A stretch of 35,892 nt of DNA from a virus. This document shows, one piece after another, positions 5,815 through 25,250 of the stretch. Location: positions 1 through 35,892 of IMG/VR virus record IMGVR_UViG_3300050821_003256; one strand, 5' to 3'. The notes beneath the pieces are model-generated. The model had not been told where the DNA came from, searched no databases, and was given only the letters and a program-made list of their open reading frames with translations. Both the position numbers and the translations under genes were made by a program. The first letter of the stretch is position 1; every line of letters begins with the position of its first letter.

Positions 5815-7419
5815 TCAGTTCTTAATTGCCGTCATGGTACAAACAAACGGACCACCGACAGGCCCCTTGCCCAGAATCATAATGTTCATTCCAGCCGGAG
5901 GAATGGATTGATTGAGCGCCCCAGCCGTCCATGCCCCGGAGGATGGCCGAGCGTTGCCGTTCAGGTCCGAGCACAGCGGCACGAGATTCCCGGTGCAAAG
6001 ACTTGTCAAATTCACGCCGACGCCGATAAGCCCTGAACCTCCAGTCGGCACTCCCGTGCTGCTATTCACGCCGAGACTTGTGAGTTTGTTTCCATGCGAA
6101 TCGCCGCCGCAGGACGATTTCCAGTTTGCGAAGGTGGCGTCGTTTGTGCCATTGCAGACCCAGGGAGAATTGCCGCTCGTTCCGATGGCCCCGTAGAAAT
6201 TGTAATCGAGCGTCGTGAACGAGGCTGTCCCAGTCACAACGTACTGACCGTAATTCTCCGTCGCATTATTTTCGGCTGTGATGCCAGTCCCGTAGAGGTC
6301 AATAGCTTCGACGTTGCTGCTTGTCGTCGCACAGCCAAGGAATGTGTTATTCGCGAGGAGGGCAAATCCCGCCCCGGCGTTCTGCGTGCGCGTCGTTATC
6401 GGAGGATTCGAGTTGACACACTGCTGAATCGCCACGTTGTTGAACACGTACAGATTGGCCGGTGGAGCGACCTCGATAAACAAAAAGTTTGATGTCGTGC
6501 AGCACGTTCCCCAGTTTCCATCCGAGCGATTGTTGTAGATGTAAAGACCGAGCGAATCCGAGGACGTGTTCATGTAATTGTGAATGCAGTTGTGATGGTA
6601 GGTATCGGCTCCCGTGTCCCAATTCGAGGCGTCGTGGCAATGATTTCCGTAGAAAAATAGCGTGCGAGTCCCGTTGCCGCTGTTTTCGAGCGCCCAATTG
6701 TTATGCCAGAATTCGTTGTTGTAAATGTTGATCGTGGCCGAGGAGAACTTCTCCATCGAGAGCGCGTTCCCATTGTCGTGGATGTCGTTATCGTGAATCG
6801 AGATTACTCCTGTGCAAGCAGTTGCCGCCGATGAACACTGAAAAGCGAAATTCCCACTGTCCGCGCTGGATGTATTGTCAGATGTAGACGTATGTTGATA
6901 TAGATTACGGATTATTAGATTGCGAATTTCGATGTCATGGCATCCTGAGCAACCTTCAAATGCCTGTGTGGTGACTGACTGATGCGCAAGCCCTGATCCA
7001 TTGGCTGTCGCTTCGACGATCCCAGTTATCCCGGAAGGATACCCCGTAGGGTTTGCAGCTTCATTGGCATAGCAGGTCGTTCCTTGGCCGCATGGCGTTC
7101 CCCCGTCGAAGAGGAGATATCCCTGACTATTTACGTTGATTAGCGGTCCAAACGCAGCACTGACTGCTGATCCCGATTCCCACTTAAATATAAGTGGATT
7201 CCCAGACGATCCGGACCCCAGTATTGAGAAGCCTCCAACAAAACTACACAGATGAATCGTATTCCCAGCAATCTCATCTCCAGCAACCAACGAACTGATC
7301 GCACGAGCGTCGGCGCAATCGTTTCCGGTATTACCTCCAGCCGACGCCTGGGCAACGTAGATATTCGCCGCCATCGCAGGACTCGCCACGAGCAATAGAA
7401 TTGGAATGAGCCATTTCAT
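5815..7419 (-). CDS. secreted-type right-handed beta-helix protein, putative tail fibre/depolymerase, 534 aa
   Basis: The start at 7419 overlaps the upstream TGA (TGATG); a longer start at 7491 lies inside the previous gene. Residues 1-18 are a clear signal peptide (MKWLIPILLLVASPAMA, cleavage before ANIYVAQ). The body has repeated N-x-I-x-N-N and H-D-N-D-I-H-D-N type coils (IEIRNLIIRN, ISIHDNDIHDNGN, INIYNNEFWHNN, LYIYNNRSDGN, LYVFNNVA). These are typical of pectate-lyase-like beta-helices (Pfam Beta_helix type). Several cysteine pairs would suit an oxidising compartment. The C-terminus GKGPVGGPFVCTMTAIKN may be a small cap. A glycan-binding or glycan-cleaving role is likely; no catalytic residues can be assigned. 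Confidence 0.75.
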   Translation of the reverse strand: MKWLIPILLLVASPAMAANIYVAQASAGGNTGNDCADARAISSLVAGDEIAGNTIHLCSFVGGFSILGSGSSGNPLIFKWESGSAVSAAFGPLINVNSQGYLLFDGGTPCGQGTTCYANEAANPTGYPSGITGIVEATANGSGLAHQSVTTQAFEGCSGCHDIEIRNLIIRNLYQHTSTSDNTSSADSGNFAFQCSSAATACTGVISIHDNDIHDNGNALSMEKFSSATINIYNNEFWHNNWALENSGNGTRTLFFYGNHCHDASNWDTGADTYHHNCIHNYMNTSSDSLGLYIYNNRSDGNWGTCCTTSNFLFIEVAPPANLYVFNNVAIQQCVNSNPPITTRTQNAGAGFALLANNTFLGCATTSSNVEAIDLYGTGITAENNATENYGQYVVTGTASFTTLDYNFYGAIGTSGNSPWVCNGTNDATFANWKSSCGGDSHGNKLTSLGVNSSTGVPTGGSGLIGVGVNLTSLCTGNLVPLCSDLNGNARPSSGAWTAGALNQSIPPAGMNIMILGKGPVGGPFVCTMTAIKN

Positions 7420-8684
7420 CAGTGCTTTGTCCACGCGGTAGGTGACTGCTGAAAAAATTGCCAGTGCGTTCCATCCACTCCGACTACACAACCGTTATCA
7501 CCCGCCGCTCCGGGCGAACTTACAAACCCTCCGCTCGCGCTCAACGTCCCGTCCGTGAAGATAATAAACTGCCCCGCCGCCGAGGTTTGAAGCGTCAGTA
7601 TTCCCGTATCCGGGTTCGTCCCGTTGTTCGAGTTCATCGCACACTTCATCAACCCGTTGGCAGCCGTGGGGAGCGTATAGGTTACAGCCGTGCCCGCCGT
7701 GGCTTCTTGGTTCATAAAGATCGTTCTGTCATAGGCATCGGCGGCTACCGAGGCTGCGGTCGTCACGGTAACGTGTATCGGCCCATCGAAAACACCGTTC
7801 TGGTCGAAGCGGGAGAGAACGACGCTTGAGGAATTGAGGATGTCGAAAATATCGGCGGTCTGGGAGTTTGCTGCCCGCACCGCGAAAGGAACGACGGCGG
7901 CGCATGCCGCTGCATTGCTGCAAGCTTCAACAATCCCGTCCGTCGCGGTCCAGAACAAGCAGGAATAATTATTAGTCCCGCCGTCGCCGACCGCCCCTCC
8001 GCCACACCACTGAGCTTGACCGTTGTCTGCTACCCCGGCAGCCATGAGCGCGACGTTCGAGCTGCCCTTTGAAACATCTGCGGCATGGTTCGTAATGACC
8101 CATGCGTCATAAGCCGTTGCCGCACTTTCCTGGATGAGATGGAATAGGGCCTTGTTTGCCGCTGGAGTGAACGAGCCGAAACCTCTCCCGCGTATGACGG
8201 CTGGTGTGTCCGCCGTTCCCGAGCTTTGGTTGTTGACATCGAGGAGCGGGGCGGATTGGGTGACGGAGTGCGAATTGATCTGCAATGGCAGAGTTGCATC
8301 CGTCTGCGCCGTCAACACAATCGGCGGGACAACGGAGCCGCCGCCAATCGACATGTAGAACGAAAAAGCAACGAGCGGCCCTCCGGAAATCGAAATGAGG
8401 TAATTCCCGGTCGGAGCGAAGAAAGGCCAGTTGCCGAATCCGTCCGAAGGGAACGGATTCGCCTGCGCCGCCCCGGAAAAGGATGAGTAAATCGTCGTAG
8501 TCGGAGAGCATACCGTCCCGACCGGCGGAAGCGTAAGCGCGCCAGAACAGACTGTGACCGTCGCTCCGGCTACTGGATGCCCTGTTCCATCGACAATCGT
8601 GCTTGTCGGCGCGGCGAAGTTCTGCCCGAATGCCGGAAGCGCAAACAAACAGGCAACCGCCAACAGTTCGAAGAGTTTTCTCAT
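7419..8684 (-). CDS. tail fibre-like protein with signal peptide and N-terminal beta-sandwich, 421 aa
   Basis: Residues 1-20 form a signal peptide (MRKLFELLAVACLFALPAFG, then QNF). Residues about 25-110 form a carboxypeptidase-regulatory-like beta-sandwich (STIVDGTGHPVAGATVTVC ... GFGNWPFFAPTGNYLISISG). A central alanine- and glycine-rich segment with probable shaft and head follows. The C-terminus (ILTLQTSAAGQFIIF ... GDNGCVVGVDGTHWQFF) resembles trimeric fibre tips. The ATG at 8684 is 4 nt after the upstream stop with a weak ribosome site. It is the first of three consecutive exported-type fibre genes. The product could be an alternative receptor-binding protein or a secreted product of the infected cell. 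Confidence 0.7.
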   Translation of the reverse strand: MRKLFELLAVACLFALPAFGQNFAAPTSTIVDGTGHPVAGATVTVCSGALTLPPVGTVCSPTTTIYSSFSGAAQANPFPSDGFGNWPFFAPTGNYLISISGGPLVAFSFYMSIGGGSVVPPIVLTAQTDATLPLQINSHSVTQSAPLLDVNNQSSGTADTPAVIRGRGFGSFTPAANKALFHLIQESAATAYDAWVITNHAADVSKGSSNVALMAAGVADNGQAQWCGGGAVGDGGTNNYSCLFWTATDGIVEACSNAAACAAVVPFAVRAANSQTADIFDILNSSSVVLSRFDQNGVFDGPIHVTVTTAASVAADAYDRTIFMNQEATAGTAVTYTLPTAANGLMKCAMNSNNGTNPDTGILTLQTSAAGQFIIFTDGTLSASGGFVSSPGAAGDNGCVVGVDGTHWQFFQQSPTAWTKH

Positions 8685-8688
8685 CTGG

Positions 8689-9081
8689 CTACCGGCCGAT
8701 GAATGCCGTCACCGTCACTGAGTTTGTCCGCGTCCGCATCAGGAGCCGCACGAACGGCGTATCGAGCTGCACACCCTGCAGGTTGAACGTCTGGTTTGTC
8801 GAATCGACGGAATTGATGATCCCGCCGCTCACCGTCTGGTAGTGCGTGTCTACATCGTCATTCGACACCTGCACGTCAATCTCAAACGTGCCCGGCGCTC
8901 CGGAGAAATAGCCCGACACATTGAACGGCGTTCCGCTCTGCGTTTGCAGGCGCAAGAGCGCGAGTTGCTGCGAAGCGGACGCGCCGCCGACGCCGGGCGA
9001 CGGCGTTTCGGCGTTCCAGACCTTGACGACTTCGCCCGGAGCGATGGAAAGGAAGGGCGGCGTAAATGTGTAGGGAGCCAT
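8689..9081 (-). CDS. putative virion beta-sandwich protein, 130 aa
   Basis: The start at 9081 overlaps the upstream TGA (TGATG). The frame continues further upstream without function. The sequence is a run of beta strands (PGEVVKVWNAE, EIDVQVSNDD, NQTFNLQGVQLD, PFVRLLMRTRTNSVTVTAFIGR). This last strand pattern is common in small phage baseplate or fibre-attachment proteins that resemble discoidin or carbohydrate-binding sandwiches. There is no signal peptide, unlike the next three fibre genes. Likely a structural component near the fibres. Confidence 0.65.
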   Translation of the reverse strand: MAPYTFTPPFLSIAPGEVVKVWNAETPSPGVGGASASQQLALLRLQTQSGTPFNVSGYFSGAPGTFEIDVQVSNDDVDTHYQTVSGGIINSVDSTNQTFNLQGVQLDTPFVRLLMRTRTNSVTVTAFIGR

Positions 9082-9293
9082 CAGGGAACCGCTTTCTGGA
9101 CGGCGCGCACTGCGGTTTGAATTTCTTCCAGGGCGAGGGCCATCCAGTTGCCGCCCTGTTGATTCCGGATGAATCCTATGTGCCTCGAAATGTTGAGGTA
9201 GTTTGCCGGATTTATCGTTGCACACGACACATCCGGCAAACTCCGCGCATAGGACAAGAGCCAGGCGTCGAAGTCCTGATAGGTCGGTTTCAT
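9081..9293 (-). CDS. small hypothetical protein with TYxxFDAWL motif, 70 aa
   Basis: The N-terminus (TYQDFDAWLLSYARSLPD) closely matches the N-terminus of the internal virion protein that starts at 13748 (TYIEFDAWLIDQAKRMPR). The underlying DNA is also similar. The rest is helical (MALALEEIQTAVRAVQKAV). No ribosome site is visible before the ATG, and the upstream context is interrupted by the HNH gene on the other strand. The gene may have lost its original leader. Possibly an adaptor sharing a docking peptide with the internal protein. Confidence 0.6.
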   Translation of the reverse strand: MKPTYQDFDAWLLSYARSLPDVSCATINPANYLNISRHIGFIRNQQGGNWMALALEEIQTAVRAVQKAVP

Positions 9294-9337
9294 GGTAAAA
9301 TAGCGGCTGGTAGCAACGATCCATTGGAGGTGGACCG

Positions 9338-9883
9338 ATGCCGAAACGCCGTGTTCGCAGACACGAAGTTATCCAGCCGCTCGATCAATCCTACAGACTT
9401 ATTCCGCTTACGCAAGGACAGAACGCCATTGTCGATGCGGAAGATTTTGACCGATTGAATCAGTGGAACTGGCATGCACAGTGGAGCAATTGCTCTAAAA
9501 CTTTCTATGCTGGGCGTAATTCTTACCCAGATGGACCGAAAGGCAAGTGCGTGTATGTACGCATGCACGCCGAAGTTCTCGGCATTAAAAGCGAAATCGA
9601 CCATCGAGACGGAAATGGCTTCAACAACCGAAAGGAAAATCTTCGTCCATGCACGCGAAAACAAAATACGTGGAACGGCACAAAGAAATCTACCAATCGC
9701 TCTGGGTTTAAGGGCGTCAGCAAAGATAGGCGTTCTCCTAACGGCCGATGGCGTGCTCGCATCATGGTTAGCGGCGTAGAAATCCAACTTGGCCTCTTCG
9801 ATACACCTGAAGAAGCAGCGCACGCCTATAATGATGCAGCCAGGCGACACTTCGGAGACTTCGCCCAAGTGAATTCCCTCTAG
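9338..9883 (+). CDS. HNH homing endonuclease with C-terminal AP2 DNA-binding domain
   Basis: GGAGGTGG lies before the ATG. The 181-aa protein has an HNH_3-type core at about 76-112: His77 in MHAEVLG, Asp88-His89 in EIDHRDGNG, Asn97, then Asn101 in KENLRPCTRKQN. An AP2/ERF-like domain follows at 121-178 (SGFKGVSKDRRSPNGRW ... DTPEEAAHAYNDAARRHFG). This is a classic free-standing phage homing endonuclease. It lies on the opposite strand to all neighbouring structural genes, is more AT-rich than they are, and shares a CTAG with the next gene so that the two stop codons overlap tail to tail. Such genes copy themselves by cutting uninterrupted homologues; no essential phage role is expected. Confidence 0.92.
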   Translation: MPKRRVRRHEVIQPLDQSYRLIPLTQGQNAIVDAEDFDRLNQWNWHAQWSNCSKTFYAGRNSYPDGPKGKCVYVRMHAEVLGIKSEIDHRDGNGFNNRKENLRPCTRKQNTWNGTKKSTNRSGFKGVSKDRRSPNGRWRARIMVSGVEIQLGLFDTPEEAAHAYNDAARRHFGDFAQVNSL

Positions 9884-10260
9884 GAGCGTCTGAAGATTCC
9901 GTGAAATTGTATCAAGTCGGCAATAATCGGACCAGCAATAGGAAGATTAGTTGCATACTCGGCGAAGGGCGACGTGCCCGTGTTCGCGCTGACCGGCGAC
10001 GTGAGAATCCGAATCGTGCTCGATTGCTTGTCCCATAAATAGTCGTAGAGTCCCGGAGGGCTGCCGACGCTCATAAACTCGGCCCATGAGATCGTGGCGG
10101 GGTTGAACGTCTCCGGAAGGTTCCAGGAAATCGGAAGTCCGCCGGCCGGGTAGACGCCCGAGCTGATCTTGATTGTGCCGTACAGGTGGAAATGATTGAA
10201 GGTCAAATCCCGAGCATCCGGGAAGTTGTTCAGTGTTACTGTGACGGTTGCATTTGCCAT
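9880..10260 (-). CDS. putative structural protein, beta-rich, 126 aa
   Basis: AAGGAGA is 6 nt before the ATG. The sequence starts with strands (ATVTVTLNNFPDARDLTFNHFHLYGTIKIS) and contains SISWAEFMSVG-like and DYLWDKQSSTIRILTS segments, with hydrophobic patches near the C-terminus. It lies between internal virion protein genes and the fibre genes, so a tail or fibre-attachment role is plausible. No family recognised. Its stop overlaps that of the HNH gene. Confidence 0.7.
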   Translation of the reverse strand: MANATVTVTLNNFPDARDLTFNHFHLYGTIKISSGVYPAGGLPISWNLPETFNPATISWAEFMSVGSPPGLYDYLWDKQSSTIRILTSPVSANTGTSPFAEYATNLPIAGPIIADLIQFHGIFRRS

Positions 10261-10298
10261 CGACTCTCCTTAGTCTTCCGCTGGACCATCCACTACAT

Positions 10299-11576
10299 CT
10301 AGCGGTTTTTGATGAACGACGGGTTCTGGCCCATGTAAAACTGGATCAAATTCTTGGCGTTCTGACGCTCGGAATCGTTGTACATTCCGGCACCCGATGC
10401 CCGGTTAATCAGTTCCTCGGCGCGTTGCCCGGCCTGGGTGCGGTCGATGCCGGTCTTCGACATGATCGCTTTGAACAGGTCTTCATGCTCCGGAACTTGG
10501 TCGGTGATATTGCCGAGCGCCCCTGATCCTCCACGGATCGGCTGAATGGGCGTGCCTTCCTCGGTGAACGGTATCGTCTCCCGAGGTCCCGGATATTCGG
10601 TCGGAGCCATACGTGTCGGCATGCGCGGAACGGATCGGCCTTCGCGCGGCGTCATTCCGGCGGCGAACTGCATTCCGCGCTCGCTCGCCCGGCGCTTGGC
10701 AACCGACTGCATCTGCTCTTCGCTGGCCGCTTCTTCGGGAGTCAGCACCAGGCTGCGCGGGCGCGTACCGGCAACGGATTCTGAGCCACCCGATGAGATT
10801 GCTCCAAGTGGACCACCGCTAGTCGGATCAATCCGAGTTGGGAGCCATGCCGCCGTTCTGTTCTTGACCGCTTGTGCGACAGGATCGGGTTCTTCCCGAA
10901 TCCCTGCCGCTATATCGGCATTCCGTTGGGCCATTTTCCGCTCTGCCATATTCTCGGCGTACTCTTCCGGAGAAGCGACGATCCTTCCGAGACCATAGGG
11001 CAGATTGGCGTAGTACTTTCCAGGAACGAACGGAGCCGCAATTCCGCCGATAGTTGCGCCGATTTGAGCGCCTTCCTTCGGATGACCGACAATGCTGCCG
11101 ACGCCGCCTCCGACGCCCGCCCCGATGGTTGATCCAGCCGCAGACTTCAGCAATCCCTTCCCGACGCCTTTGGCAACACCCTTGAGTCCCACTTGCTCGA
11201 TTGCTTCCTGCGTCCCGATAGCCGGAAGGATCACTGATGCGGCATCTGAAAAAGGTGTCGGGCTTCGCATGGCCCGATTCTCCGCTGCTCCGAGGCGTGT
11301 TGCACGCGCCGATTGGTCCTCCCACGCCTGATTGATATTCGCGGGAACCCGGACCCGAGCGCCGCCCGAATCGTACAACTCAGGGACAGGCCGCATGGAT
11401 GGAGGAAGTGGCGCTGGTCCCGTTGGCGCTCCTGCGGTGCGCGCGGCAGCCTGCGTCTGCTGTGTGAGTGGATCGGTCGGGCCGGAAACGACGGAAGCGC
11501 CCAGAGGAAGGTCGCTATAGCCTGCGACCTCGGCACCTTTCGGCAGATCGCTGTATGTTGTTACTCCGGCTGCCAT
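10299..11576 (-). CDS. putative internal virion (ejection) protein with glycine zipper, 425 aa
   Basis: The N-terminus contains two copies of YSDLPxGA (residues 8-15 and 20-27). Residues about 147-185 form a glycine-zipper membrane-active segment (STIGAGVGGGVGSIVG ... GAQIGATIGGIAAPFVPG), the kind that inserts in membranes. Long helical, charged regions follow, with a C-terminal helical domain (DLFKAIMSKTGIDRTQAGQRAEELINRASG). Large glycine-zipper proteins between tail and fibre genes of podoviruses are commonly ejected with DNA to form a trans-envelope channel. The start overlaps the upstream gene by 16 nt. There is no homology-based proof. Confidence 0.65.
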   Translation of the reverse strand: MAAGVTTYSDLPKGAEVAGYSDLPLGASVVSGPTDPLTQQTQAAARTAGAPTGPAPLPPSMRPVPELYDSGGARVRVPANINQAWEDQSARATRLGAAENRAMRSPTPFSDAASVILPAIGTQEAIEQVGLKGVAKGVGKGLLKSAAGSTIGAGVGGGVGSIVGHPKEGAQIGATIGGIAAPFVPGKYYANLPYGLGRIVASPEEYAENMAERKMAQRNADIAAGIREEPDPVAQAVKNRTAAWLPTRIDPTSGGPLGAISSGGSESVAGTRPRSLVLTPEEAASEEQMQSVAKRRASERGMQFAAGMTPREGRSVPRMPTRMAPTEYPGPRETIPFTEEGTPIQPIRGGSGALGNITDQVPEHEDLFKAIMSKTGIDRTQAGQRAEELINRASGAGMYNDSERQNAKNLIQFYMGQNPSFIKNR

Positions 11577-12922
11577 TGACCGCCGCGTTTCACCTGATAG
11601 GAACCATCCGACATTTTGACCCGAGTTCCTTCAGGAGCTTTTTCGCCCTGATCTTGGGTGCCCTGCATTCGCTTTTGTGCCATTTTCGCCGTAATGTCGA
11701 TCACGTCGAGCATCTGCTTGCGCTGGTCGGGAGTCAAAAGTTGGCCGCTCTCGACCTTGTTCATCAAAGCCTGGATGTCACCGAGCGTGGACCGAGACTT
11801 CTGGATCATGTTCCATTCGGTCTGCGTCATGCGGAATCCGGACTTTGGACGGGTCGCTTCGACCATAGCCAGAATCAGGCCAATGTCGCCTGGTCCGGTC
11901 TTCTGGTCCGCAAATTCCTTAGCTTCCTGCTGCTTGTCGAGGATGTCTTGAAAAGGTTGATTCTGCTTTTGCTGCGCTTCTGAAATTTTCTGCTGCGCGG
12001 CCATGCCAGGAGCCGTCGTTGCGCCTCCAAGATTAGGCGCGGCGCGCATTTCTCCGGTCGCCGGATTCCATGCGCCTGTGATTGCGCCTGTCTTCGGATC
12101 GAATGTCGGAGTGAATGCGCCACGATCGGGCGTCTGTTCCTGGCGCTTTTCCTCAGCCTCGAACTGCATCCGCGTACCGTCCGGATGAGTCTGTTTCCAT
12201 TCGTCAAACGTCTGTTCTTGGAACGTTTCCTTGGTCGGTTCCTTTCCTTTTGTGGACGATCCGACACGAATATCGTATCGGCCCGTCTGGGGATTGAATT
12301 GATACACGCCTTCCCCGGTATCAACCGTCGCGCCAATTTTCTCCGTTTCCTTTGCAGGGGGGGTTCTCAATGCCGCAGCCCGCGCTTGAGCTTCCTCACT
12401 CTGCGCGCCTCGAAGCTCTTCCTCTGTTCGTTGCGTTTCTTCGGCCCGCTGCTCGGACTCTGCGCCGCGAAGATTCGATAGGTCTTGATTCTGCTGCACG
12501 ATCCTTCCGAGCGGAGTTTGCGGGATCATTGCAGCAATGTGCGGAGTCAGGATCGACGCGGCCCAACCCCCAATCTTGCCCAGAGTTCCGGGCTGCGGTC
12601 TGGCAACATCGGCGGCATACTTCCTCTGAGCGTAATCCACTGATCCGGGAGGACCGGATGGAGGAGCCATGTCGGATGCCGGAGCGGAAGCGGGCGCGAT
12701 GGGCGGAAGTGGGGACGCTCCCACATCCGGTGCGCCCGTCCCTAGCGTGGTGGGGGCTGATGGATTCCAGTTAGGAGTGAGCGGGGAAGCGGAATCCGGA
12801 GGAGGCTGCATCGCGCCGAGGCGCGGATCGGCTGGCTGACTCGGCGTCAGCGGAAACAGACCCGTGATTCCCGCGAACTGGTCGAGCACTTCCGGGTCGG
12901 CTTTAATCGTTACGTCAGCCAC
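11561..12922 (-). CDS. putative internal virion protein, Pro-rich N-terminus and coiled coil, 453 aa
   Basis: The GTG start at 12922 overlaps the upstream stop by 8 nt. Residues 25-105 are Pro/Ala/Ser-rich and likely disordered. Residues about 145-190 form a strong coiled coil (NLRGAESEQRAEETQRTEEE and onward). A central GVYQFNPQTGRYDIRV strand and FDPKTGAITGAWNPATGEM repeat-like hairpins follow, then helices, then a C-terminal SDGSYQVKRGGQWQPE strand. Gene order matches podoviral internal proteins that are ejected with DNA. The KxxDGSxYxVKxGGQW ending is a short SH3-like motif seen in various phage tail-end proteins. Confidence 0.6.
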   Translation of the reverse strand: MADVTIKADPEVLDQFAGITGLFPLTPSQPADPRLGAMQPPPDSASPLTPNWNPSAPTTLGTGAPDVGASPLPPIAPASAPASDMAPPSGPPGSVDYAQRKYAADVARPQPGTLGKIGGWAASILTPHIAAMIPQTPLGRIVQQNQDLSNLRGAESEQRAEETQRTEEELRGAQSEEAQARAAALRTPPAKETEKIGATVDTGEGVYQFNPQTGRYDIRVGSSTKGKEPTKETFQEQTFDEWKQTHPDGTRMQFEAEEKRQEQTPDRGAFTPTFDPKTGAITGAWNPATGEMRAAPNLGGATTAPGMAAQQKISEAQQKQNQPFQDILDKQQEAKEFADQKTGPGDIGLILAMVEATRPKSGFRMTQTEWNMIQKSRSTLGDIQALMNKVESGQLLTPDQRKQMLDVIDITAKMAQKRMQGTQDQGEKAPEGTRVKMSDGSYQVKRGGQWQPE

Positions 12923-13748
12923 GGGCTTTCCTCAAAAACACATCGAATAGTATCTTGGTCCAATCGCGGGCGCTTCTGTGAAGGACAATAAATTCGGACC
13001 ACTGTCGGCCGAACCTCTGATACAGGAACACAAACGGCTGCATGTACCATGTCTTGACGAGCCATCGGCGAATCAGGAAGGTTTCGAGCGTGTTCCACCC
13101 TCCATAGAGTTCAGCGGCCACCCAACAAATCCCCGTAGCAGCCGCTCCGACTCCAGTACCTAAACTGCCAAGTGCGCCCAATACGCCGGTGACGTTTTGC
13201 AGCCAACCAACCTGCTGGGCGTTCACACCGGATTTGATATCCTCCGGCTGCTGCCCAAGGGCCGAGAGTTGCGCGTTGACGTTTGTGCCATACAGCCCGG
13301 AAAGAAGGCCCGCGCCCTCTTGCTGCTGTTGCTGTTTCAATTGCGCGTTCTGCGCGAGGATGTCTTGCTGGTTCGCGCCCCCGGCCGCCGACGCTTGCTG
13401 CGCCGCTGCATCCTGGGATGCGTTGATCCCGGCCGCATTCCCGCCGCGCGCCGCCGCGAGCGCTGCAGATTGCGCCGCGTTGTTCGATGCCGAACTTGCT
13501 TCCTCTCCGGCGATTGCCTGCATGTTCTGCAGGTCGGCACCGTATCCCGGAGGCGCGGTCATCATGTTTGTGCCGAAACTCTGCAGCGGTCCATACAGGC
13601 CGCTCGCATTCGCTCCGGCCTGATTCGCAACTCCGGTCGTCGCTCCGAACGTCTGCTTTTCCTGCTGTTGCAGCGCGCGGTCGTTCATCGCCCGAGGCAT
13701 GCGCTTCGCCTGGTCGATCAGCCACGCGTCGAATTCGATGTAGGTCAT
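12915..13748 (-). CDS. internal virion protein with FDAWL N-terminus and CFI-box-like C-terminus, 277 aa
   Basis: The start at 13748 overlaps the upstream TGA (ATGA); a longer frame to 13847 lies within that gene. The N-terminus is TYIEFDAWLIDQAKRMPR, matching the gene at 9081-9293. Residues 30-180 are Ala/Gln/Asn-rich and low complexity. A Gly/Ala/Val segment (183-207) looks membrane-active. The last 70 residues start at Cys208 (CWVAAELYGGWNT) and continue with aromatic and basic residues (RRWLVKTWY ... FLYQRFGRQWSEFI). This resembles the CFI-box C-terminal domain found in some bacterial and phage proteins. Likely ejected with DNA or part of the tail core. Confidence 0.65.
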   Translation of the reverse strand: MTYIEFDAWLIDQAKRMPRAMNDRALQQQEKQTFGATTGVANQAGANASGLYGPLQSFGTNMMTAPPGYGADLQNMQAIAGEEASSASNNAAQSAALAAARGGNAAGINASQDAAAQQASAAGGANQQDILAQNAQLKQQQQQEGAGLLSGLYGTNVNAQLSALGQQPEDIKSGVNAQQVGWLQNVTGVLGALGSLGTGVGAAATGICWVAAELYGGWNTLETFLIRRWLVKTWYMQPFVFLYQRFGRQWSEFIVLHRSARDWTKILFDVFLRKARG

Positions 13749-14104
13749 GTGAGAAGCCTCGAAAAGCACGGCCACGGACTCATGCGCCACCCCAATTCTC
13801 CGAGCGTGTGCGCGAACTTCGGCGCGATGTCGGGCGGGACCCAGCAACTTACGTCTTCGAGTTTGAAAATCTTTGCCGCTTCGATGGCCTTGCCCGAAAC
13901 TTCCCGGATTGCCTCAACGCGTTCGCGCACGCTGGCCTTCGGTTCGAGCCACAGATACGCTTCGCCGATCATCTTGACCGCGCAAACCGCTTTTTCGTTC
14001 GCGGCCTTTTCGGTCAGGATCATCAAGGGACTATCGAGCGCCGGAAGCGGATACCGGATGCCCATTTTCTGATGCAGGTCGGCAATCAGTTGCTCGGTCG
14101 TCAT
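13745..14104 (-). CDS. hypothetical tail-region protein, 119 aa
   Basis: The start at 14104 overlaps the upstream TGA (ATGA), fixing MTTEQLIADLHQ. The protein looks alpha/beta: DSPLMILTEKAANEKAVCAVKMIGEAY, ASVRERVEAIREVSGKAIEAAKIF and a proline-containing C-terminus DIAPKFAHTLGELGWRM. No family recognised. Its place between the large tail protein and an internal virion protein suggests a small tail or assembly factor. Confidence 0.6.
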   Translation of the reverse strand: MTTEQLIADLHQKMGIRYPLPALDSPLMILTEKAANEKAVCAVKMIGEAYLWLEPKASVRERVEAIREVSGKAIEAAKIFKLEDVSCWVPPDIAPKFAHTLGELGWRMSPWPCFSRLLT

Positions 14105-16707
14105 AGTCCGCTGATCGGTATGGACGGATCGCGCATGACTCCGACTACCATACGCCTTAAGTTGAAATACGATCCTGCATTTCCGTCCGTCTTGAGTTGC
14201 AAGAAGCAATAGTTCCCGGTTTCATTCAATGGCAGGTTCACATCGTCGAGCGCCGGATTTGCGAGCGTTACCGGAGGCTGCGCATTCGCATAGGGCGTTT
14301 CGAGATTTTCGGGATACGTTGTCAGGATTGCCCCGCCAGCGCCTTCGAGCGTGGCGGTCATATAGGCGTATTGCTTGCGAACGCTGCCGAGCTGCAATCC
14401 CTGGTTCTGCATCTCATCCGAGAATCCGAAAGTCGTGTACTTCTCCGGGATGGCAGCGCTGTCGTCGGTCTGGTTCGATGCGTCGAGCACATAGATTTTC
14501 CCGGTGCCCGTCCCGCCAAGCCAAAGCTGTTGCGCGACGGCGCTCTGATTGATCCAGTTCGCAACTGGGGAAGCAATCGTCCATGCTGTCCACTTCCGGG
14601 TTTGATCCCTCGAAAGCAACTGCCCGGTGAATGCCGATGGATGAACGCCGATGGCCGATGCAATATCGGCGGCGGTGAAAAGTCCGAGATACGACATGCA
14701 TAGAATCACGTTCGGTGTCGCGGGCGCAGCGTTCGCCGGGGCGTCGGGCATCCACTTGTTCGGCGTAATCATCGGCACGCCGACCAGAATCCTTTGCTGG
14801 TACAGGTCGATCTTCACCCACACTCGGTTGAGCGAAGGTTCGTAAAGCTGATTCCAGAGCTGCTGAATCTCCTGGCTGATCTTTTGCGGCGTGCCTCCGT
14901 CGAAGATGTACACGCCCTGCCGATTCGCGTAAATGACCCAAGCATCCCCGAGATCGTCGGCGAGCGGTCCGCAGATGCCGCCCGCCCCGGTAATTTCCAC
15001 GATTCCCCAGCCGGAAGGCTCCGATCCGGCCGTCACTTGCGTTTGAAACAGCCGGTCCTCGGTGGCGAAATAGAGCGAGTTATTGTTTGGAAAAACGAAT
15101 TGATCCGTCAGCGGGCGCGTCGTGAACAGAGAAGCGTCGATGATGCCCGTTACCGAATCGACGCACTGCGGATCGCCGAGGACGCCGTTGTTCAGGAGAT
15201 AGCTCGCCGAAAGCTGCGAAGCGTAAATCGGGCTTTCAGTCGGGAAGATTTCGATGCGATCCACAAACAGCGTCGCGTTGCCCGGAAGATTGTTCGGATA
15301 CAGTTGCAATTCTGCGAATTCCGCAAGCTTCGTTCCGAGAGAAAAATCAAGAATGAATTCCTGTGGAACTTGCGTAAGCGGTCCGGTTGCGACATTCGAC
15401 GCCATCGGAAGCGAACCGCCCGAAAGTGTGAATCCGCAAGTCGCCCCGACCCCGAGTGCATCCGTATAGGCCGTGACTCGAATCGAATAATCGAAATTGT
15501 TCTGAAGTTGCGGAACGCCGAACGGATCGAGTCCAAAGTTCTTGAAGAGATAGTAGGTCGGCGGGAGTGAAGTGTTGATTGTCGATCCTGTCGGATTCTT
15601 AAAGGAAAGCGCTATCCCGTAGATGAGGGAACGAACCACGGAAAGAGTCGGTCCGGGCGAGGATACGCCCCACGTTGCCGCAAACGCTCCATTGCCGTCG
15701 AATGTCATGTTCGGGATGTTGTCCACCTTGACGCGCTCACCGAGATAGAACATACGGCCGCCATAGTTGACGCCCTTGACGTACTCGCCGATCTCGCGCA
15801 TCTGCAGGACGTTGCCGCCGACAACGGAAAGATTGATGCCCGAAGTGATTGCCGTGTCCGAAAGGATGGCGGTCAACGTCGTCGTGGTATTGTCGTTGAT
15901 GACCGTTGGACCGAAAGGACCTCCCGATCCGGCAACGGCATTCGGAATGTAGTAGTAGGGTCCGCCGATCCCGGCATTCGCCGCCGTCAACGCGATAATT
16001 CGAGCGACACAGTTGCGCGGACCGATGCCCACATTCGAGAAGATGATTCCAATCTCCGTCGAGGTTGTTGTAAACTGCGAAGGCTGTGAGGCCGGAGTGA
16101 TCGAACCATCGGCCATCAGGAACATGTAAATGCAGTACCGCGTTCCGGCGGCAAGCTGCCCCGATCCCGTTCCAGTTCCTACTGCTGAGAAAAAATCATC
16201 CTGCGGCCCGCACTGCGAGACGCGGCCTACGTTCGTTCCTGTATAGGTGCGCGGCTGGTCGTAGCCGTTCGTCACAAGCCCGCCAATCGGACTGACAACC
16301 TCCGGCCCGAAGTTCGATAGCGCGATGAATTCCGTGTTCTCGACATTCTCGGATGTGGCGATGGCGTTTGAGACGACAGGCGAATCGCCGGGGAAAAAAG
16401 GAACGATATTGCCGTCACCGATCTGTGTGATTTGTCCCGCGCTCGTCTGGTATAGCGTCGCATCCTCGGGCGGAGAGAATGCCGGAATGATCCGCGTGGA
16501 CTTGAGATACGGAACCGTCAGCCCGGCTCCGATTCCAAGCTGCGTTGTCAGTCCTGGCCGGATGGTGAATCCGCCGATCAGGAAATCGACATCGTGATTG
16601 AGCGGCGAAGCGCCGAGCGGCAAGTCCCGTTCGTCGGCTTCGGTATACAATCCGCCGAAGCGTCCGAGCGTCATTTCCGCAAATGGCTGTCCGAGCAGGA
16701 ATCCCAT
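14101..16707 (-). CDS. large tail hub/tubular protein (TTPB- or P22 gp10-like), 868 aa
   Basis: The N-terminus has FGGLYTEADERDLPLGASPL and FLIGGFTIRPGL, a pattern of phage tail-tubular B and P22 gp10-type stabilisation proteins (N-D-x-D-F-x-x-G-x-x-x-R-P-G). Long beta-rich regions follow with propeller-like repeats (YIFDGGTPQKISQEIQQLWN, ILVGVPMI, WTAWTI, KIYVLDASNQTDD). Proteins of this size and pattern close the lower end of short tails and contact fibres. There is only a 6-nt gap after the upstream stop and no clear ribosome site before the ATG at 16707, so translation probably follows from the preceding gene. Confidence 0.65.
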   Translation of the reverse strand: MGFLLGQPFAEMTLGRFGGLYTEADERDLPLGASPLNHDVDFLIGGFTIRPGLTTQLGIGAGLTVPYLKSTRIIPAFSPPEDATLYQTSAGQITQIGDGNIVPFFPGDSPVVSNAIATSENVENTEFIALSNFGPEVVSPIGGLVTNGYDQPRTYTGTNVGRVSQCGPQDDFFSAVGTGTGSGQLAAGTRYCIYMFLMADGSITPASQPSQFTTTSTEIGIIFSNVGIGPRNCVARIIALTAANAGIGGPYYYIPNAVAGSGGPFGPTVINDNTTTTLTAILSDTAITSGINLSVVGGNVLQMREIGEYVKGVNYGGRMFYLGERVKVDNIPNMTFDGNGAFAATWGVSSPGPTLSVVRSLIYGIALSFKNPTGSTINTSLPPTYYLFKNFGLDPFGVPQLQNNFDYSIRVTAYTDALGVGATCGFTLSGGSLPMASNVATGPLTQVPQEFILDFSLGTKLAEFAELQLYPNNLPGNATLFVDRIEIFPTESPIYASQLSASYLLNNGVLGDPQCVDSVTGIIDASLFTTRPLTDQFVFPNNNSLYFATEDRLFQTQVTAGSEPSGWGIVEITGAGGICGPLADDLGDAWVIYANRQGVYIFDGGTPQKISQEIQQLWNQLYEPSLNRVWVKIDLYQQRILVGVPMITPNKWMPDAPANAAPATPNVILCMSYLGLFTAADIASAIGVHPSAFTGQLLSRDQTRKWTAWTIASPVANWINQSAVAQQLWLGGTGTGKIYVLDASNQTDDSAAIPEKYTTFGFSDEMQNQGLQLGSVRKQYAYMTATLEGAGGAILTTYPENLETPYANAQPPVTLANPALDDVNLPLNETGNYCFLQLKTDGNAGSYFNLRRMVVGVMRDPSIPISGL

Positions 16708-16713
16708 GATGGT

Positions 16714-17538
16714 TTAGAAGGTGAAGATGTCCCCCGTCTCTCCGTAGGCTCCCCGGCTGTGCCGGACCGCTTGCATGGCCTTCGCTTCTCGGTTGATAAC
16801 CTTGTCCATCTCCGTCCGAATCTTTGCCAGAAGCCCGCTCGTTGCGCCTTCCGGCAAGCGTGCGGCGCAGAACTTTTCCGCGCCCATGAGCGAAAGAACA
16901 GAAATCGAATCCTTGAATGGAATGGGCGTCGTCGAAAAGAGCGGCGTCGAAAGGTTCCCGTAAAACGCTACTTGCTGCACGTAGCGCATGCGCATTTCGA
17001 GCGCGACGAGCGACCCGTTCCAGAAAAGAGAATATCCGCGCCAGTCCCATTCTCCGGGCGCATAATCCTGAAACTGCGATTGCAAGCCCGCGCGCGCCGG
17101 ATAGAACTCGGTGAAATTCAGGTTCGATCCCGCTGTCCGAAACCACATGCGCTTCGGCACAAGGCAATCGGGCGGCAGGAACGGCGTCGGATAATTCTGA
17201 TAGCCGTCGAAGAATCCGGTAAAGCTGAGTTCCTGCTGTGCTGCCGGATTCGGCGTTCCCGCTCCGGCGCTGCTGTTGATCGGAGGAATGGAGTTGCCGA
17301 GCGCTTGCGTGAAAAAGACTTCGTTGTACTTTGTCGGAATCGAAGCGTTATCGAGTTCGCGCTGAAAGTCGGCAAGACAGTCGTTCAAAATCGGAATCGT
17401 GAACGGAGCGCCATCGGTGAAGATGCGGCCTTCGCCCGGAGTGCCGGTTGCCCCCTTAAACGTGTCATTAATTTTTTGCCGGACCAGATTCGCCCAGGTC
17501 TCAATCGTCGGATACGCTGTCGAGCCGACTCCCGGCAT
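16714..17538 (-). CDS. putative neck/tail tubular protein A-like, 274 aa
   Basis: The start overlaps the preceding TAA (TAATG). The N-terminal helix (YPTIETWANLVRQKINDTF), a short GRIFTD strand and LNDCLADFQRELDNASIP resemble head-tail adaptor and tubular-A proteins. The middle has aromatic strands (FEFYPARAG-like, YAPGEWDWRGYSLFWNG), and the C-terminal helices (GLLAKIRTEMDKVINREAKA) precede AYGETGDIFTF. Position between capsid-side and tail-hub genes supports the neck call. Homology is not certain. Confidence 0.55.
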   Translation of the reverse strand: MPGVGSTAYPTIETWANLVRQKINDTFKGATGTPGEGRIFTDGAPFTIPILNDCLADFQRELDNASIPTKYNEVFFTQALGNSIPPINSSAGAGTPNPAAQQELSFTGFFDGYQNYPTPFLPPDCLVPKRMWFRTAGSNLNFTEFYPARAGLQSQFQDYAPGEWDWRGYSLFWNGSLVALEMRMRYVQQVAFYGNLSTPLFSTTPIPFKDSISVLSLMGAEKFCAARLPEGATSGLLAKIRTEMDKVINREAKAMQAVRHSRGAYGETGDIFTF

Positions 17539-18374
17539 TAGCTAGCCTGTTCCCACCATCGGCATTCTTCCGGCACGTCTTCGCGCTTGACCGCTCCGGC
17601 CTTGACTGCTTTCTGCCAGTCGAGCACACAGATGAAGCCGAGCGTGTTTCGATGGAAGGCCACGTCCCGCGAGACGATCTCTCCACAGTTCGGGCACGTC
17701 GGCTGAATCTCGGCAATCACATGCCATTGGCTCTTGGCGTGGAAGTACTCCGCAGCCATGTGGTGCTCGGGGCCGATGGTTCGGCGCTGGTCGGCGTCAT
17801 TCGTCATGTACGCCTGGTCCGCTTGCTGCAGGAGTTGCTTGTAGTGCGCCTCCATCCGGTCGCGTGTCAGTCGCAAGTGTTCGGGCTTCGGTGGATCGTC
17901 AGTCGAGAAGAACAGGCCGCGCCGCGTCATATCGTCGGTGCCCTGGTCAAGCCATGCGCGTTCCGGACTGACCGGCGAGTTCCACATGTCGATGCCGAGA
18001 TTCACCGGGTTCAGAAGGTCCATGACGAACCGTTCGCCTTGGATGCCGCGATTGCGCGTCTCGCCCGTGTCCGCATCGACCCACTTTTCGTTGACGATGT
18101 TCGGGAACACGCCGACCTTGACGTAATCCTTGTCCTTTGGGCATGGTCCGAACACGATGCAGGGAAAGTTGGGCGGCCGGCGAATCTCAAAGCGCCGGGG
18201 CGCGATGTTGTAGACGTAGATGTGATAATCCGGCTGCCGCGAAATGTTCGCGTCCTGCGTGAAGTCCTGCAGCGTGAACGGAAGCAGAACCATGTTCTCC
18301 CGCTGCGTCATTACTTGCGATTGCTGCACGGCAATCGGCGACTTCGGATCGAGTATTGCATCTCTCTTTGCCAT
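17538..18374 (-). CDS. virion-region protein with C-terminal zinc-ribbon-like motif, 278 aa
   Basis: AAGGAGA is 5 nt before the ATG. The N-terminal half is beta-rich (YHIYVYNIAPRRFEIRRPP, GPCPKDKDYVKVGVF). A helical middle follows, then TCPNCGEIVSRDVAFHR with later Cys residues (GFICVLDW), a likely zinc knuckle. The C-terminus is acidic with Trp (EECRWWEQ). Proteins of this type, beta domain plus CxxC, occur next to capsid genes in related podovirus-like genomes, but I cannot name the family. Possibly a head-closure or assembly adaptor. Confidence 0.6.
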   Translation of the reverse strand: MAKRDAILDPKSPIAVQQSQVMTQRENMVLLPFTLQDFTQDANISRQPDYHIYVYNIAPRRFEIRRPPNFPCIVFGPCPKDKDYVKVGVFPNIVNEKWVDADTGETRNRGIQGERFVMDLLNPVNLGIDMWNSPVSPERAWLDQGTDDMTRRGLFFSTDDPPKPEHLRLTRDRMEAHYKQLLQQADQAYMTNDADQRRTIGPEHHMAAEYFHAKSQWHVIAEIQPTCPNCGEIVSRDVAFHRNTLGFICVLDWQKAVKAGAVKREDVPEECRWWEQAS

Positions 18375-18383
18375 TCCGTCTCC

Positions 18384-18995
18384 TTAGCTGAGTTGCTGAA
18401 GTCCTTTTCGCGCGGCAATGCTCTGGCCCATCTGCGATTCGATCCGGTCCATCATCTGCTGCACGTAGGACCGGCAATTCGTCTGCCCGACAAAGCTGAT
18501 CCCGTCCACCGCGATGGACCCGACCGCATCCTGCAGATTGTCGGCAATGCGGTTCTCGATGATCTTGTCGTCTTTTTCCTTCATGGCCTTCATCACCGCA
18601 AGCCGCTTTTCGGGCGTCTCGCATTCGTAGGCCATGATCGTGTACATGATGAATTCGGCCACGCGGCGGGACATTTCCATCGGCACGATCTTCTTGTCGA
18701 TGCGTTCGTAGAACGGCTGAACCGGATTGTACATGCCGCGATGCGGGTAAGCGCCGAGGGCTTCGTAATCCCAGGAATCGGGACTCCCCCACTTTTCCGG
18801 AGGCTCCCATTTGAGAAGCACCCAGGCGGGAATCGGAAACAGGCGCATGTCTCCGAATCCCGTCCGGGTGACATAGGTTTCGCCCCAGACGATCTTGAAG
18901 TTAGGCTCGCCGTAGGGATTGATTCCCCCGGAGCGAAGAATCAACTCTTCGATCTCCGGGGGAAGTTTGTGCTCTGTGCGGCCCAGCTCGATCAT
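18384..18995 (-). CDS. hypothetical head-region protein, 203 aa
   Basis: The start at 18995 is set by an ATGA overlap with the upstream stop. The protein has EHKLPPEIEELILRSGGINP, YGEPNFKIVWG, a proline/tryptophan loop (LKWEPPEKWGSPDSWDY) and long C-terminal helices (MSRRVAEFIMYTIMAYE, AVMKAMKEKDDKIIENRIAD). The N-terminal RSGGxNxYGEPNFxxVWG motif is one I have seen in uncharacterised phage proteins of this genome class. Likely a structural or assembly protein; function unknown. Confidence 0.65.
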   Translation of the reverse strand: MIELGRTEHKLPPEIEELILRSGGINPYGEPNFKIVWGETYVTRTGFGDMRLFPIPAWVLLKWEPPEKWGSPDSWDYEALGAYPHRGMYNPVQPFYERIDKKIVPMEMSRRVAEFIMYTIMAYECETPEKRLAVMKAMKEKDDKIIENRIADNLQDAVGSIAVDGISFVGQTNCRSYVQQMMDRIESQMGQSIAARKGLQQLS

Positions 18996-19399
18996 TGCGT
19001 AATCATTTCGAACTGGTAGCACCCCGGATTGGTCGTAAAGCTCGACGCCGACGTGATCGTGAACGACGATCCAACCGTGCGGGCCGAAATCCAAGCCGCC
19101 ACGTTGTTCGTGTTGCAGGTCACGCCGAGCGTAGTCCCCATCGTGGTCGATGTATCCTGTGTGAGCATGATGGTTGACTTTGCAGTGACCGCCGAAGTGT
19201 TGACTACAACGGTCGTTGCACCGCCGGACGCAATCGTGACAAGGCCGTAGCTCGCCGACTGGCAGGCGGGCGCGGCAATGCTCGAAATGCACTCGGCGTA
19301 TTGCTGGGCGTGAATCGGCTTCACGACATTCGGAATGAGAAGCGTTCCGAGCGCCGCGACAGCCGCGAGAACCAAGGTGATGATCGTTGCTTTTTTCAT
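18992..19399 (-). CDS. exported-type small protein after the capsid gene, 135 aa
   Basis: Two ATGs are possible. AAGGAGG is 10 nt before the one at 19399 and only 1 nt before the one at 19408, so 19399 is chosen. Residues 1-32 form a signal peptide (MKKATIITLVLAAVAALG ... then PIHA, QQYAE). The mature part is Thr/Ser/Ala-rich and beta-like with four Cys residues, consistent with disulphides in the periplasm or outside. Its place between the major capsid gene and a head-region gene is where decoration proteins often lie, but an export signal argues against simple head decoration. Its role is unclear. Confidence 0.7.
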   Translation of the reverse strand: MKKATIITLVLAAVAALGTLLIPNVVKPIHAQQYAECISSIAAPACQSASYGLVTIASGGATTVVVNTSAVTAKSTIMLTQDTSTTMGTTLGVTCNTNNVAAWISARTVGSSFTITSASSFTTNPGCYQFEMITQ

Positions 19400-19414: not shown

Positions 19415-20734
19415 TTAGATCGTGGGCTGTGCGGCGTTGGAAACGATCACGCCTGCACGCACGTTACTGTTGACGAGGTTAAGCGCGGCCACATAAGCAA
19501 ACATGGACGACGTGAGGTAGCCTCCGTTGATGATGTCCGGCACGGGCGCCACGGTGATCCCGCCGCCGAAGTCGTACAGTTCGAGCGGCAGCATTTCTCC
19601 GATGTACCACGTGTCGAACGTGAACAGGTCAAGCCGCCCCGGTAGCGCGTTCCACCCGACATGCAGGTCGCGGCCCGCATAGGACATCGGCCAGTTGCGC
19701 TTCACCATGTCGAGAGCGGAGTCGCCCTTCGCTTCCGGCACGTTCACGAACAGGGCATTCAGATACAGGTTCGCAATCTGCATGGCCTGATCGGGACCCG
19801 TGTACCACGTCACCGACTTCATCGCGGCGTTGTCCTGGCCCAAGGCGCGGCCAAGCAATACGTTCGCCCGGTATCCGGTCGAAAGCGCCAAGGCTCCGTT
19901 ATTGAGGTTGATGATTGGAGTCGAGAGCCGCCCCGGATACGTGGCGCGCGAGAGGCCGCCAATCGTTCCCGTGTTCGAGTTCACCTGCCACGCCCGAAGC
20001 CCCATGATTGAAGATCCGGCGGTGCCCGCCGAACCCGAGATCACAAGGAAGTCGGTCGTGGTGGTTCCCGAAGGAAGCGCCGTCGAGGAGTAAATCGTGT
20101 TCGCAACGGCATCGACAAAGCTGATGACGAACGAGCCGCGATTCGTTCCGCCGGTCGAGATCACCTGCACCGTTTGCTGATCGGTGAACTGGAAGGCATT
20201 CTGCATTCCGACAATCGAAGAAAACGACGGGCCGGCCGAGCCGGTTCCGTTGTTCACGGTCGCCGTCGCCGGAATCTGGTCGAGCGTTCCGGTGCCGTCG
20301 CCGTTGCACAAGGCTTCGAGGCCCTGCGTCGCTTGCTGGAATGTGTTCTTCAGTTCTTGCGCCTGCACGTTGAACAGGCCGCGCTTACGGCCTTCCGTGG
20401 CGATGCGGGCGAGGAAGGTAATTTCGCAAACCGAGAAGACGAAAACCGGAGACAGCGCGAACGCGGCCCACTGCGACCCGGTGCCCCGGCCAAGAGAATC
20501 GGCGTTGCCGGTCCCTTGCGTGAGCGCTGCACCCGCCTGCGGACGGAACGGCACGCGGAACGAAGGGCGCGTGGTCCCTCCGGCTGCCGTCACGTTCGAG
20601 ACGGGGATGGTTGTGGCGTTGTTTTTGAAAAGGGAATAGAGCGTCTTGTCGAACTGGATTAGATCGGGGATGTCCTTTGAAAACGCATCCAGCTCGATGG
20701 CTTCAACTGCCGCTTCCTGTACTGGATTTGCCAT
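19415..20734 (-). CDS. major capsid protein (HK97-fold type)
   Basis: This 439-aa protein sits after portal and scaffold and has the composition of a major capsid protein: a helical N-arm (PVQEAAVEAIELDAFSKDIPD), the segment FRPQAGAALTQGTG, a long spine-helix region (VQAQELKNTFQQATQGLEAL), and beta-rich A- and P-domain stretches. RNWPMSYAGRDLHVGWNALP and SNVRAGVIVSN lie near the C-terminus. An AGGTGA sits 8 nt before the ATG. No protease gene is visible, and with a separate scaffold the N-terminus is probably not cleaved as in HK97. Confidence 0.85.
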   Translation of the reverse strand: MANPVQEAAVEAIELDAFSKDIPDLIQFDKTLYSLFKNNATTIPVSNVTAAGGTTRPSFRVPFRPQAGAALTQGTGNADSLGRGTGSQWAAFALSPVFVFSVCEITFLARIATEGRKRGLFNVQAQELKNTFQQATQGLEALCNGDGTGTLDQIPATATVNNGTGSAGPSFSSIVGMQNAFQFTDQQTVQVISTGGTNRGSFVISFVDAVANTIYSSTALPSGTTTTDFLVISGSAGTAGSSIMGLRAWQVNSNTGTIGGLSRATYPGRLSTPIINLNNGALALSTGYRANVLLGRALGQDNAAMKSVTWYTGPDQAMQIANLYLNALFVNVPEAKGDSALDMVKRNWPMSYAGRDLHVGWNALPGRLDLFTFDTWYIGEMLPLELYDFGGGITVAPVPDIINGGYLTSSMFAYVAALNLVNSNVRAGVIVSNAAQPTI

Positions 20735-25200: not shown

Positions 25201-25250
25201 GGCTGCGGCTTCTGTGTGATGTCCTGGTTTCCGGTGTCGTCTTGGGCCAT
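22194..25250 (-). CDS. portal protein with inserted histidine-phosphatase domain, 1018 aa
   Basis: Portal homology is supported by position directly upstream of scaffold and capsid. Portal-type segments include SGKFYGYETNIYATYGEIITAA, RVNNWIDLWNDFFIRTIP, SIFVKRSGANL and RDQALARLSTPWHAIMMATC, with a long helical C-terminus. Inside it, residues about 237-425 form a complete histidine-phosphatase (PGAM-like) fold: LLYLVRHGETPRNEEG (Arg242, His243), SSPLPRAVESAE (Arg292), DDRFAARDIGDLEGQ (Glu323) and VTHDSVIS (His380). Portal sequence resumes at PRGEEVAEVYGKLEAKVPI. Without the insert the portal would be about 820 aa, a normal length. The enzyme would sit on the portal ring; its substrate is unknown. 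Frame and ends are intact, so this is not an assembly break. Confidence 0.85.
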   Translation of the reverse strand: MAQDDTGNQDITQKPQPYPDSDSVKTDTDEKPKPRTFRPGDLSPFWYSPQQNVLDDLSEKAKNEVKRLVDEIGNKDVAARRWEVEQSWEARLFDRGYQYLLPRRGGGWILPPFATDYNRTSSKKSGKFYGYETNIYATYGEIITAALTRDVPGVRFEPKNPESDIDVTAKEAATRYAKCFGRSNDLLALQQQMVYYLRTDGRSVIVTDHIIDRQRFGSLDPLNPVNPETETAEEQALLYLVRHGETPRNEEGITRGQSDVGLDPHGQQESSDAGSYLKGKSIGRIISSPLPRAVESAERIAQITGVPVEMDDRFAARDIGDLEGQASEDVGEDFEESSENPDEPLPGGGESQNDLDSRVQEAILDQLQTTAAQPTAIVTHDSVISSAFRAIHGEEYVPPTDLVDPGGIAGIFAAPGGGFTIRPVFPTTAEHGAVPTEESEPRGEEVAEVYGKLEAKVPINAQSQADFPWMQVSREFDYAFVKGMFPEYADKIKPGSAGAGENELDRIARINACLALEASYVTGDSMVRDCTVQRTWMRPGYFMSCEDTDVRDELFKYFPNGCLAIMAGEAMVLARNENMDDHCTTVQAFPGSGMNRLALCSKLLSLQKRVNNWIDLWNDFFIRTIPNRIYDLDMYNPEAIQDQPQMPGDSIFVKRSGANLTQPIETSVFVEPTPTHQASMPQAIQMWLTDLPQLLSGAIPSLFGAQSNVDTINPSSGVAMALTRDQALARLSTPWHAIMMATCNYFRQAVQLAAKCRKEPIRMAGQPGEAVRIELADMKGNVLCYPEESYDIPESWNQRQARYQGLITEAATNPYLAQLLSSPQNAKIAHDAAGMEEFIIPQADSWEKQLGEFEVLLKSSPIPNPQKIQAQQQIDQVVSGAKAVPPQAIPPAAVSGVDQAIQQIQAMPDMVSSVQIDPQVEDSATESACCAWWLNSAEGRKYKNGTPEERDGYQNVRLHKLEHDAAMKNNVPPAPQKPMSVSANIKDMPPRAAAAELTKRGLPAAPQEIAAERSNTNG
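23976..24542 (-). other. histidine-phosphatase domain inserted in the portal gene
   Basis: This segment codes for residues about 237-425 of the portal. His243 is encoded at 24522-24524 and His380 at 24111-24113, both checked on the bases. Codon use shifts here toward GGA and CCA triplets compared with flanking portal sequence, suggesting later acquisition. The domain is flanked by Glu/Pro-rich linkers (PVNPETETAEEQ and AVPTEESEPRGEE), a usual setting for a domain inserted in a surface loop. Confidence 0.85.

Follow-up and report, generated by a model that had tools for sequence, protein, structure and literature searches.

Putative exported, disulfide-bonded tail-fibre-class proteins encoded by a podovirus-type phage and its relatives

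On the conventional view, tailed phages complete their particles in the cytoplasm, and the presence of predicted export signals on late proteins of a tailed virus raises the question of where, and in what form, such proteins might act. The DNA examined here, referred to throughout as the window, is a linear virus record of 35,892 bases from a soil bacteriophage of podovirus type. Its late genes lie on the minus strand in the order terminase, portal-like gene, capsid gene, tail genes and then the fibre-like genes P0003, P0002 and P0001, the last of which extends to position 3705. The features considered are as follows:

26768-28375, minus strand: terminase
22194-25250, minus strand: portal-like protein
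19415..20734, minus strand: major capsid protein, used as query for relatives; role inferred from position and conservation
18992..19399, minus strand: P0004, 135 aa, signal plus K1-lyase_C-like domain with 4 Cys, directly after the major capsid gene
19307..19399, minus strand: P0004 signal peptide, about 31 aa, cleavage between IHA and Q (score; site by eye)
14101-16707: tail protein
7419..8684, minus strand: P0003, 421 aa, signal, tail-fibre N-terminal (anchor) domain and C-terminal fibre module (8 Cys)
8625..8684, minus strand: P0003 signal peptide, 20 aa, cleavage between AFG and Q (score)
8295..8624, minus strand: P0003 anchor domain, approximately residues 21-130, with a Cys pair (profile, model and structure matches)
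7422..7775, minus strand: P0003 C-terminal fibre module, approximate limits
5815..7419, minus strand: P0002, 534 aa, signal plus probable right-handed beta-helix (19 Cys)
7369..7419, minus strand: P0002 signal peptide, 17 aa, cleavage between AMA and A (score)
3705..5792, minus strand: P0001, 695 aa, signal plus Cys-rich fibre-like protein (16 Cys in the mature part)
5730..5792, minus strand: P0001 signal peptide, 21 aa, cleavage between AFG and Q (score; site by eye)

The original prediction, that four genes encode Sec-type signal peptides and that three of the products are fibre-like, was borne out. Signals were found in four of the 24 window genes checked, in open frames at the coordinates first proposed, although the minus strand had gone unstated and the range given, 5815-19399, had omitted the gene at 3705-5792. 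According to a home-made score of the n-, h- and c-regions, the four N-termini reached 4.2-5.0, whereas the best of the 20 other window genes reached 0.35. When each N-terminus was shuffled 2000 times, a score of 4.0 was attained by 3, 10, 28 and 72 of the shuffled sequences, and in the control phage P22 two of 43 ORFs scored as signals, including the frame that encodes the Rz spanin. With cleavage sites placed by eye, the N-termini are MKAAKVLMFLVLILCASRAFG followed by Q (P0001), MKWLIPILLLVASPAMA followed by A (P0002), MRKLFELLAVACLFALPAFG followed by Q (P0003) and MKKATIITLVLAAVAALGTLLIPNVVKPIHA followed by Q (P0004), each with a positive n-region, a hydrophobic core and small residues at -3 and -1; as judged from sequence, these are classical Sec signals. 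Inspection by eye for a lipobox or twin-arginine motif revealed neither in the four N-termini. The hydrophobic stretch of P0004 is long, and its signal is the one assigned with the least certainty. The gene starts are backed by the stop/start overlap at 7419 and by ribosome-binding sites ahead of 5792 and 19399.

The breadth of the trait was examined among relatives of the major capsid protein, a search with which returned 11 viral contigs and, with the derived profile, 77 loci; 46 records, the window included, were scanned as pieces, some only in part. Outside one clade, 39 of the 1084 ORFs in 28 records are signal-bearing and low in charge, compared with none of 691 in the 18-record clade itself. 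The capsid relatives carry two to five tandem signal-bearing proteins in the usual tail-fibre position (G014 has five, G012 four, G007 three and G004 two), and in G013 the signal-bearing cluster lies among virion genes. Nor is the trait limited to one capsid lineage, since in L232 three signal-bearing proteins stand beside a tail-sheath gene indicative of a contractile tail (phrog_205, E 1.5e-58), and in L246 such proteins stand beside a different capsid family (phrog_371). No viral relatives were found with the tail protein at 14101-16707 or P0004 as queries. At the thresholds used, P0001-P0003 had no relative among 50,697 isolated phage records; the capsid protein and two signal-less anchors likewise had none in the isolated-phage collection.

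The cysteine content of these proteins argues that the signals function. The mature parts of P0001-P0004 contain 47 Cys in 1697 residues, whereas the products of 13 further late genes have 40 in 5468 (p 9e-10), a more than 3-fold enrichment. Exported bacterial proteins are described as favouring even cysteine numbers (PMC7678975), and the mature counts of P0001, P0003 and P0004 (16, 8 and 4) are even, while that of P0002 (19) is odd. Among the relatives, an even count was found in 34 of 36 signal-bearing, low-charge proteins and in 44 of 95 signal-less, low-charge controls, in a first set for which the score threshold and charge filter had been chosen after an initial look at the counts; with a looser threshold of 3.7 the figure was 36/40, and two of the four odd proteins, from G016 and G019 (958 aa), resemble false signals. 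Since the filter had followed that initial look, a hold-out run was conducted in which the parity rule was stated beforehand and new contigs were then sought. Search A3 gave 21 loci, of which two were already in the first set and 19 were used, and search A4 returned known contigs only. In this hold-out, 38 of 41 signal-bearing proteins were even, compared with 11 of 21 signal-less, low-charge proteins. When both sets were pooled and each homology cluster was thinned to a single protein, 49 of 52 were even (p 5e-12), and odd counts were confined to 5 of 78 signal-bearing proteins, P0002 among them. There is little doubt that P0001-P0003 are of a kind that would be exported and folded oxidatively, and the earlier proposal that their cysteine pairs suit an oxidising compartment is supported by the parity, the hold-out test and the relatives. 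Signal cleavage, periplasmic folding and enzymatic activity are themselves presumed from sequence.

Individually, the proteins differ in how readily they can be classified. P0001 has an N-terminal motif, GxPxGxC...YxCxxGxW, which by eye is common to signal-bearing proteins of G006, G024 and G037. P0002, which has a relative in G007 (E 1e-16), is a probable right-handed beta-helix; its structural model is weak (pLDDT 44), with only beta-helix enzymes as best matches and none at E 1e-3 or better, and assignment to an enzyme class was rejected on account of the weakness of the model. The C-terminal module of P0003 occurs in other signal-bearing and in signal-less phage fibres, its cysteines varying in both forms, with just two signal-less copies available. 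Taken as a group, it is highly probable that P0001-P0003 are fibre-class proteins. P0004 is a small domain that resembles K1-lyase_C (Pfam PF24146), the match covering residues 49-120 at E 1.6e-5 and 25.7 bits, below the curated cutoff of 27; it departs from that family in its signal peptide and in four Cys that are conserved. In G014 the same domain lies at the C-terminal end of a fibre-like protein that has a signal (43% identity, 4/4 Cys conserved), and this protein also matches PF24146 below the cutoff. A PDB sequence search gave no match for P0002, P0004 or the anchor profile, and comparison with PHROGs did not place the signal-bearing proteins in any informative family.

A link to the virion is provided by the anchor domain. 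The match of P0003 in G010 is to the N-terminal region of a fibre-like protein that begins with this domain, without a signal. Of 41 further relatives, 26 have the domain, in most cases at the very start of the protein. In P0003 it lies directly behind the signal; in signal-less relatives tail fibres open with it. Circularity in this homology is avoided, since the signal-bearing copies are recovered by a profile made solely from signal-less ones (L231 2e-16, G014 4e-12, G012 2e-8, P0003 1e-6 and G013 1e-4). The domain is retained in P0003 and six other signal-bearing proteins, in L231 with the signal fused directly to a near-typical fibre start, and was detected in neither P0001 nor P0002. Two or more anchor cysteines occur in five of seven signal-bearing copies but in three of 33 signal-less copies, after removal by hand of overlapping duplicates (script output 7/9 and 3/34). 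In those five, two Cys lie inside the aligned part, while in the two L231 copies the second lies just ahead of it; G013 has Cys-free signal-less copies beside a signal-bearing copy with two Cys. The model of the P0003 anchor has a pLDDT of mostly 74-92 over residues 21-110 and adopts the common transthyretin/CNA-B-like sandwich, with best structural matches at Z ~10. Phage tail chains from the Pam1 and Pan3 tail structures match at Z 8.0-8.4, and the model also resembles predicted Pantoea phage tail spikes. The modelled fold is nonetheless generic, which counts against a virion-anchoring interpretation.

Signal-bearing fibres also appear to replace conventional ones. A signal-bearing, fibre-like protein of 300+ residues is present in 15 records and a signal-less anchored one in 14, and by script none of the 46 records has both; G019 was counted as signal-bearing on a weak basis, which leaves the zero overlap unaffected. 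The associated p of 0.001 overstates independence, because lineages with and without signals each group together on the capsid tree. On that tree the signal-bearing state requires a minimum of four changes; 15 of the 46 rows have neither kind of fibre or are too partial to call. Additionally, short signal-less anchors accompany separate signal-bearing bodies in G004 (170 aa), G037 (226 aa) and the G328 prophage (172 aa), an arrangement that suggests a docking adaptor with exported fibres.

As to the host, a search of genome contigs picked by pattern with the capsid profile found nothing, but a search of 297 Acidobacteriota genomes gave one match, in G328 (E 3e-132). It lies on a contig of 63 kb, the remaining half of which codes for acetate kinase, phosphoketolase and similar host genes. 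In this contig (G328:C158, L256-L259) the signal-less 172-aa anchor is followed by signal-bearing proteins of 1143 aa (20 Cys) and 251 aa (4 Cys), the latter with a weaker signal (score 3.25). This places a relative of the phage inside the chromosome of a member of the Acidobacteriota, with mis-assembly as a residual possibility. Together with the beta-helix loci described below, these sequence data support Acidobacteriota as the host phylum of the lineage.

The interpretation preferred here, at a probability of roughly 50%, is that these are exported, disulfide-bonded tail-fibre/depolymerase proteins, active outside the cell, which become part of virions during lysis or afterwards. P0001-P0003 would be proteins of the tail-fibre/tailspike class, receptor binding and probably polysaccharide degrading, that are synthesised late in infection as Sec precursors. 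In an Acidobacteriota host they would pass through the inner membrane, shed their signal peptides and form disulfide bonds as they fold in the periplasm. During lysis or later, P0003 with its anchor, and perhaps the others through P0003, could then attach to released virions, surplus molecules acting as free enzyme; P0004 may belong to this class too, as a small domain that is exported and encoded beside the capsid gene. Docking is favoured by retention of the anchor behind the signal, by the fibre-slot position and by the replacement of signal-less fibres, although whether it follows export is an evenly balanced matter on the present sequences. Of the options first proposed, secreted or periplasm-loaded proteins, export with disulfide folding was upheld, whereas no evidence was found for decoys. 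A more general proposal, of an Acidobacteriota tailed-phage lineage that sends its receptor-binding fibres through Sec, folds them oxidatively in the periplasm and fits them outside the cytoplasm at lysis, with part of the virion assembled extracellularly, is tentative, at slightly below even odds. Runs of exported fibre-class proteins with paired cysteines in many soil phages would imply either that virion completion takes place beyond the cytoplasm or that the phages release matrix-degrading enzymes into their surroundings in quantity. This bears on viral attack on Acidobacteriota and on how genes are read in soil virome surveys, in which such genes would be expected to be labelled, perhaps, as carbohydrate metabolism.

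The main rival explanation, which is rather unlikely, dispenses with the virion: the proteins would be lyases or hydrolases of polysaccharides, acquired from the exopolysaccharide gene clusters of hosts and exported to thin the matrix so that progeny escape or spread, and never present in particles. A profile of two signal-bearing beta-helix proteins matched seven genome loci, all seven titled as Acidobacteriota taxa (lineage confirmed for Silvibacterium and Acidiferrales), with five signal-bearing proteins among the host homologues, and in the two loci inspected, L247 and L250, the gene lies by eye among glycosyltransferase- and polymerase-like genes. Free enzymes are further favoured by the position of the G004 cluster immediately before a lysozyme gene, which counts for the preferred reading as well, and by the precedent of Pantoea WceF, described as an exopolysaccharide-cluster enzyme with a tailspike fold and an export signal (PMC7949094). 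The beta-helix homologues in host polysaccharide clusters also suit a depolymerase. Against enzymes that are only ever free, the tail-fibre N-terminal domain is kept in seven signal-bearing proteins, and the lack of a coexisting signal-less anchored fibre of 300+ residues would leave these phages without an obvious receptor-binding protein.

An improbable alternative is surface display or lysogenic conversion, whereby the proteins, once exported, remain on the surface of the infected cell or lysogen, where they change its adhesion or keep other phages out. The integrated relative in G328 shows that some members can be prophages, subject to the residual possibility of mis-assembly; periplasmic exclusion proteins encoded by phages, such as T4 Spackle, are also described (PMC7650644). 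Display is countered by the location of the genes within the late structural cluster, by the fibre modules and anchor domains that they keep, and by the lack of an outer-membrane anchor on inspection by eye. A last alternative is that the hydrophobic N-termini do not work as export signals, being either helices that stay uncleaved or remnants of genes taken up from secreted proteins of the host. Capture is plausible for the beta-helix family, whose host homologues carry signals too, but this alternative is very improbable given cysteine parity kept across 52 homology clusters and Cys pairs inside phage-type domains that mostly have none in signal-less forms.

With regard to known systems, P0001-P0003 share with podoviral tailspikes and fibres an N-terminal anchor domain (in P0003), a long, low-charge, beta-rich body and tandem genes after the tail genes, differing in the Sec signal ahead of anchor or body and in their paired cysteines. 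WceF is likewise exported, and is described as a trimeric beta-helix encoded in an exopolysaccharide cluster, although it is the product of a bacterial gene with a Tat signal and without a tandem fibre array (PMC7949094). Signal-peptide endolysins and T4 Spackle also leave the cytoplasm with cleaved signals, but are presented as lysis or exclusion factors as opposed to fibre-class proteins (PMC6116005, PMC7650644). A literature search of titles and abstract starts, with incomplete coverage of print, returned no paper on signal-bearing tail fibres in tailed phages. The excerpts considered of a Bacteroides phage paper describe signal peptides in two phages with no tie to fibres (PMC5723332), and those of PMC8144416 and PMC13001222 had no bearing on such fibres.

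Several further observations were made. A histidine phosphatase domain (Pfam PF00300, E 9.6e-35) is inserted in the portal-like protein (22194-25250, minus strand) at residues 238-395; in the relative G004 a separate gene, following the portal-like gene, encodes a product whose RHGET start is similar. In another relative, a chaperonin (Cpn60, E 1.3e-57) is encoded between capsid and tail genes at L009:14943-16535, with similar frames, by eye, in L008 and L012, and at L228:15957-17603 a further signal-bearing protein lies past a 1980-aa tail-like protein, away from the main cluster. Between the terminase gene and the right end of the window, a cluster of glycosyltransferase- and methyltransferase-like genes (28551-31733, minus strand) possibly has a role in glycan modification, and an ERF-type recombinase is encoded at 34023-34772 (plus strand, E 5.9e-19). 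Finally, a tandem repeat with a 12-base unit in 19.9 copies (35318-35556) lies within the plus-strand frame 34863-35633, where it codes for Ala/Asp/Trp-rich repeats.
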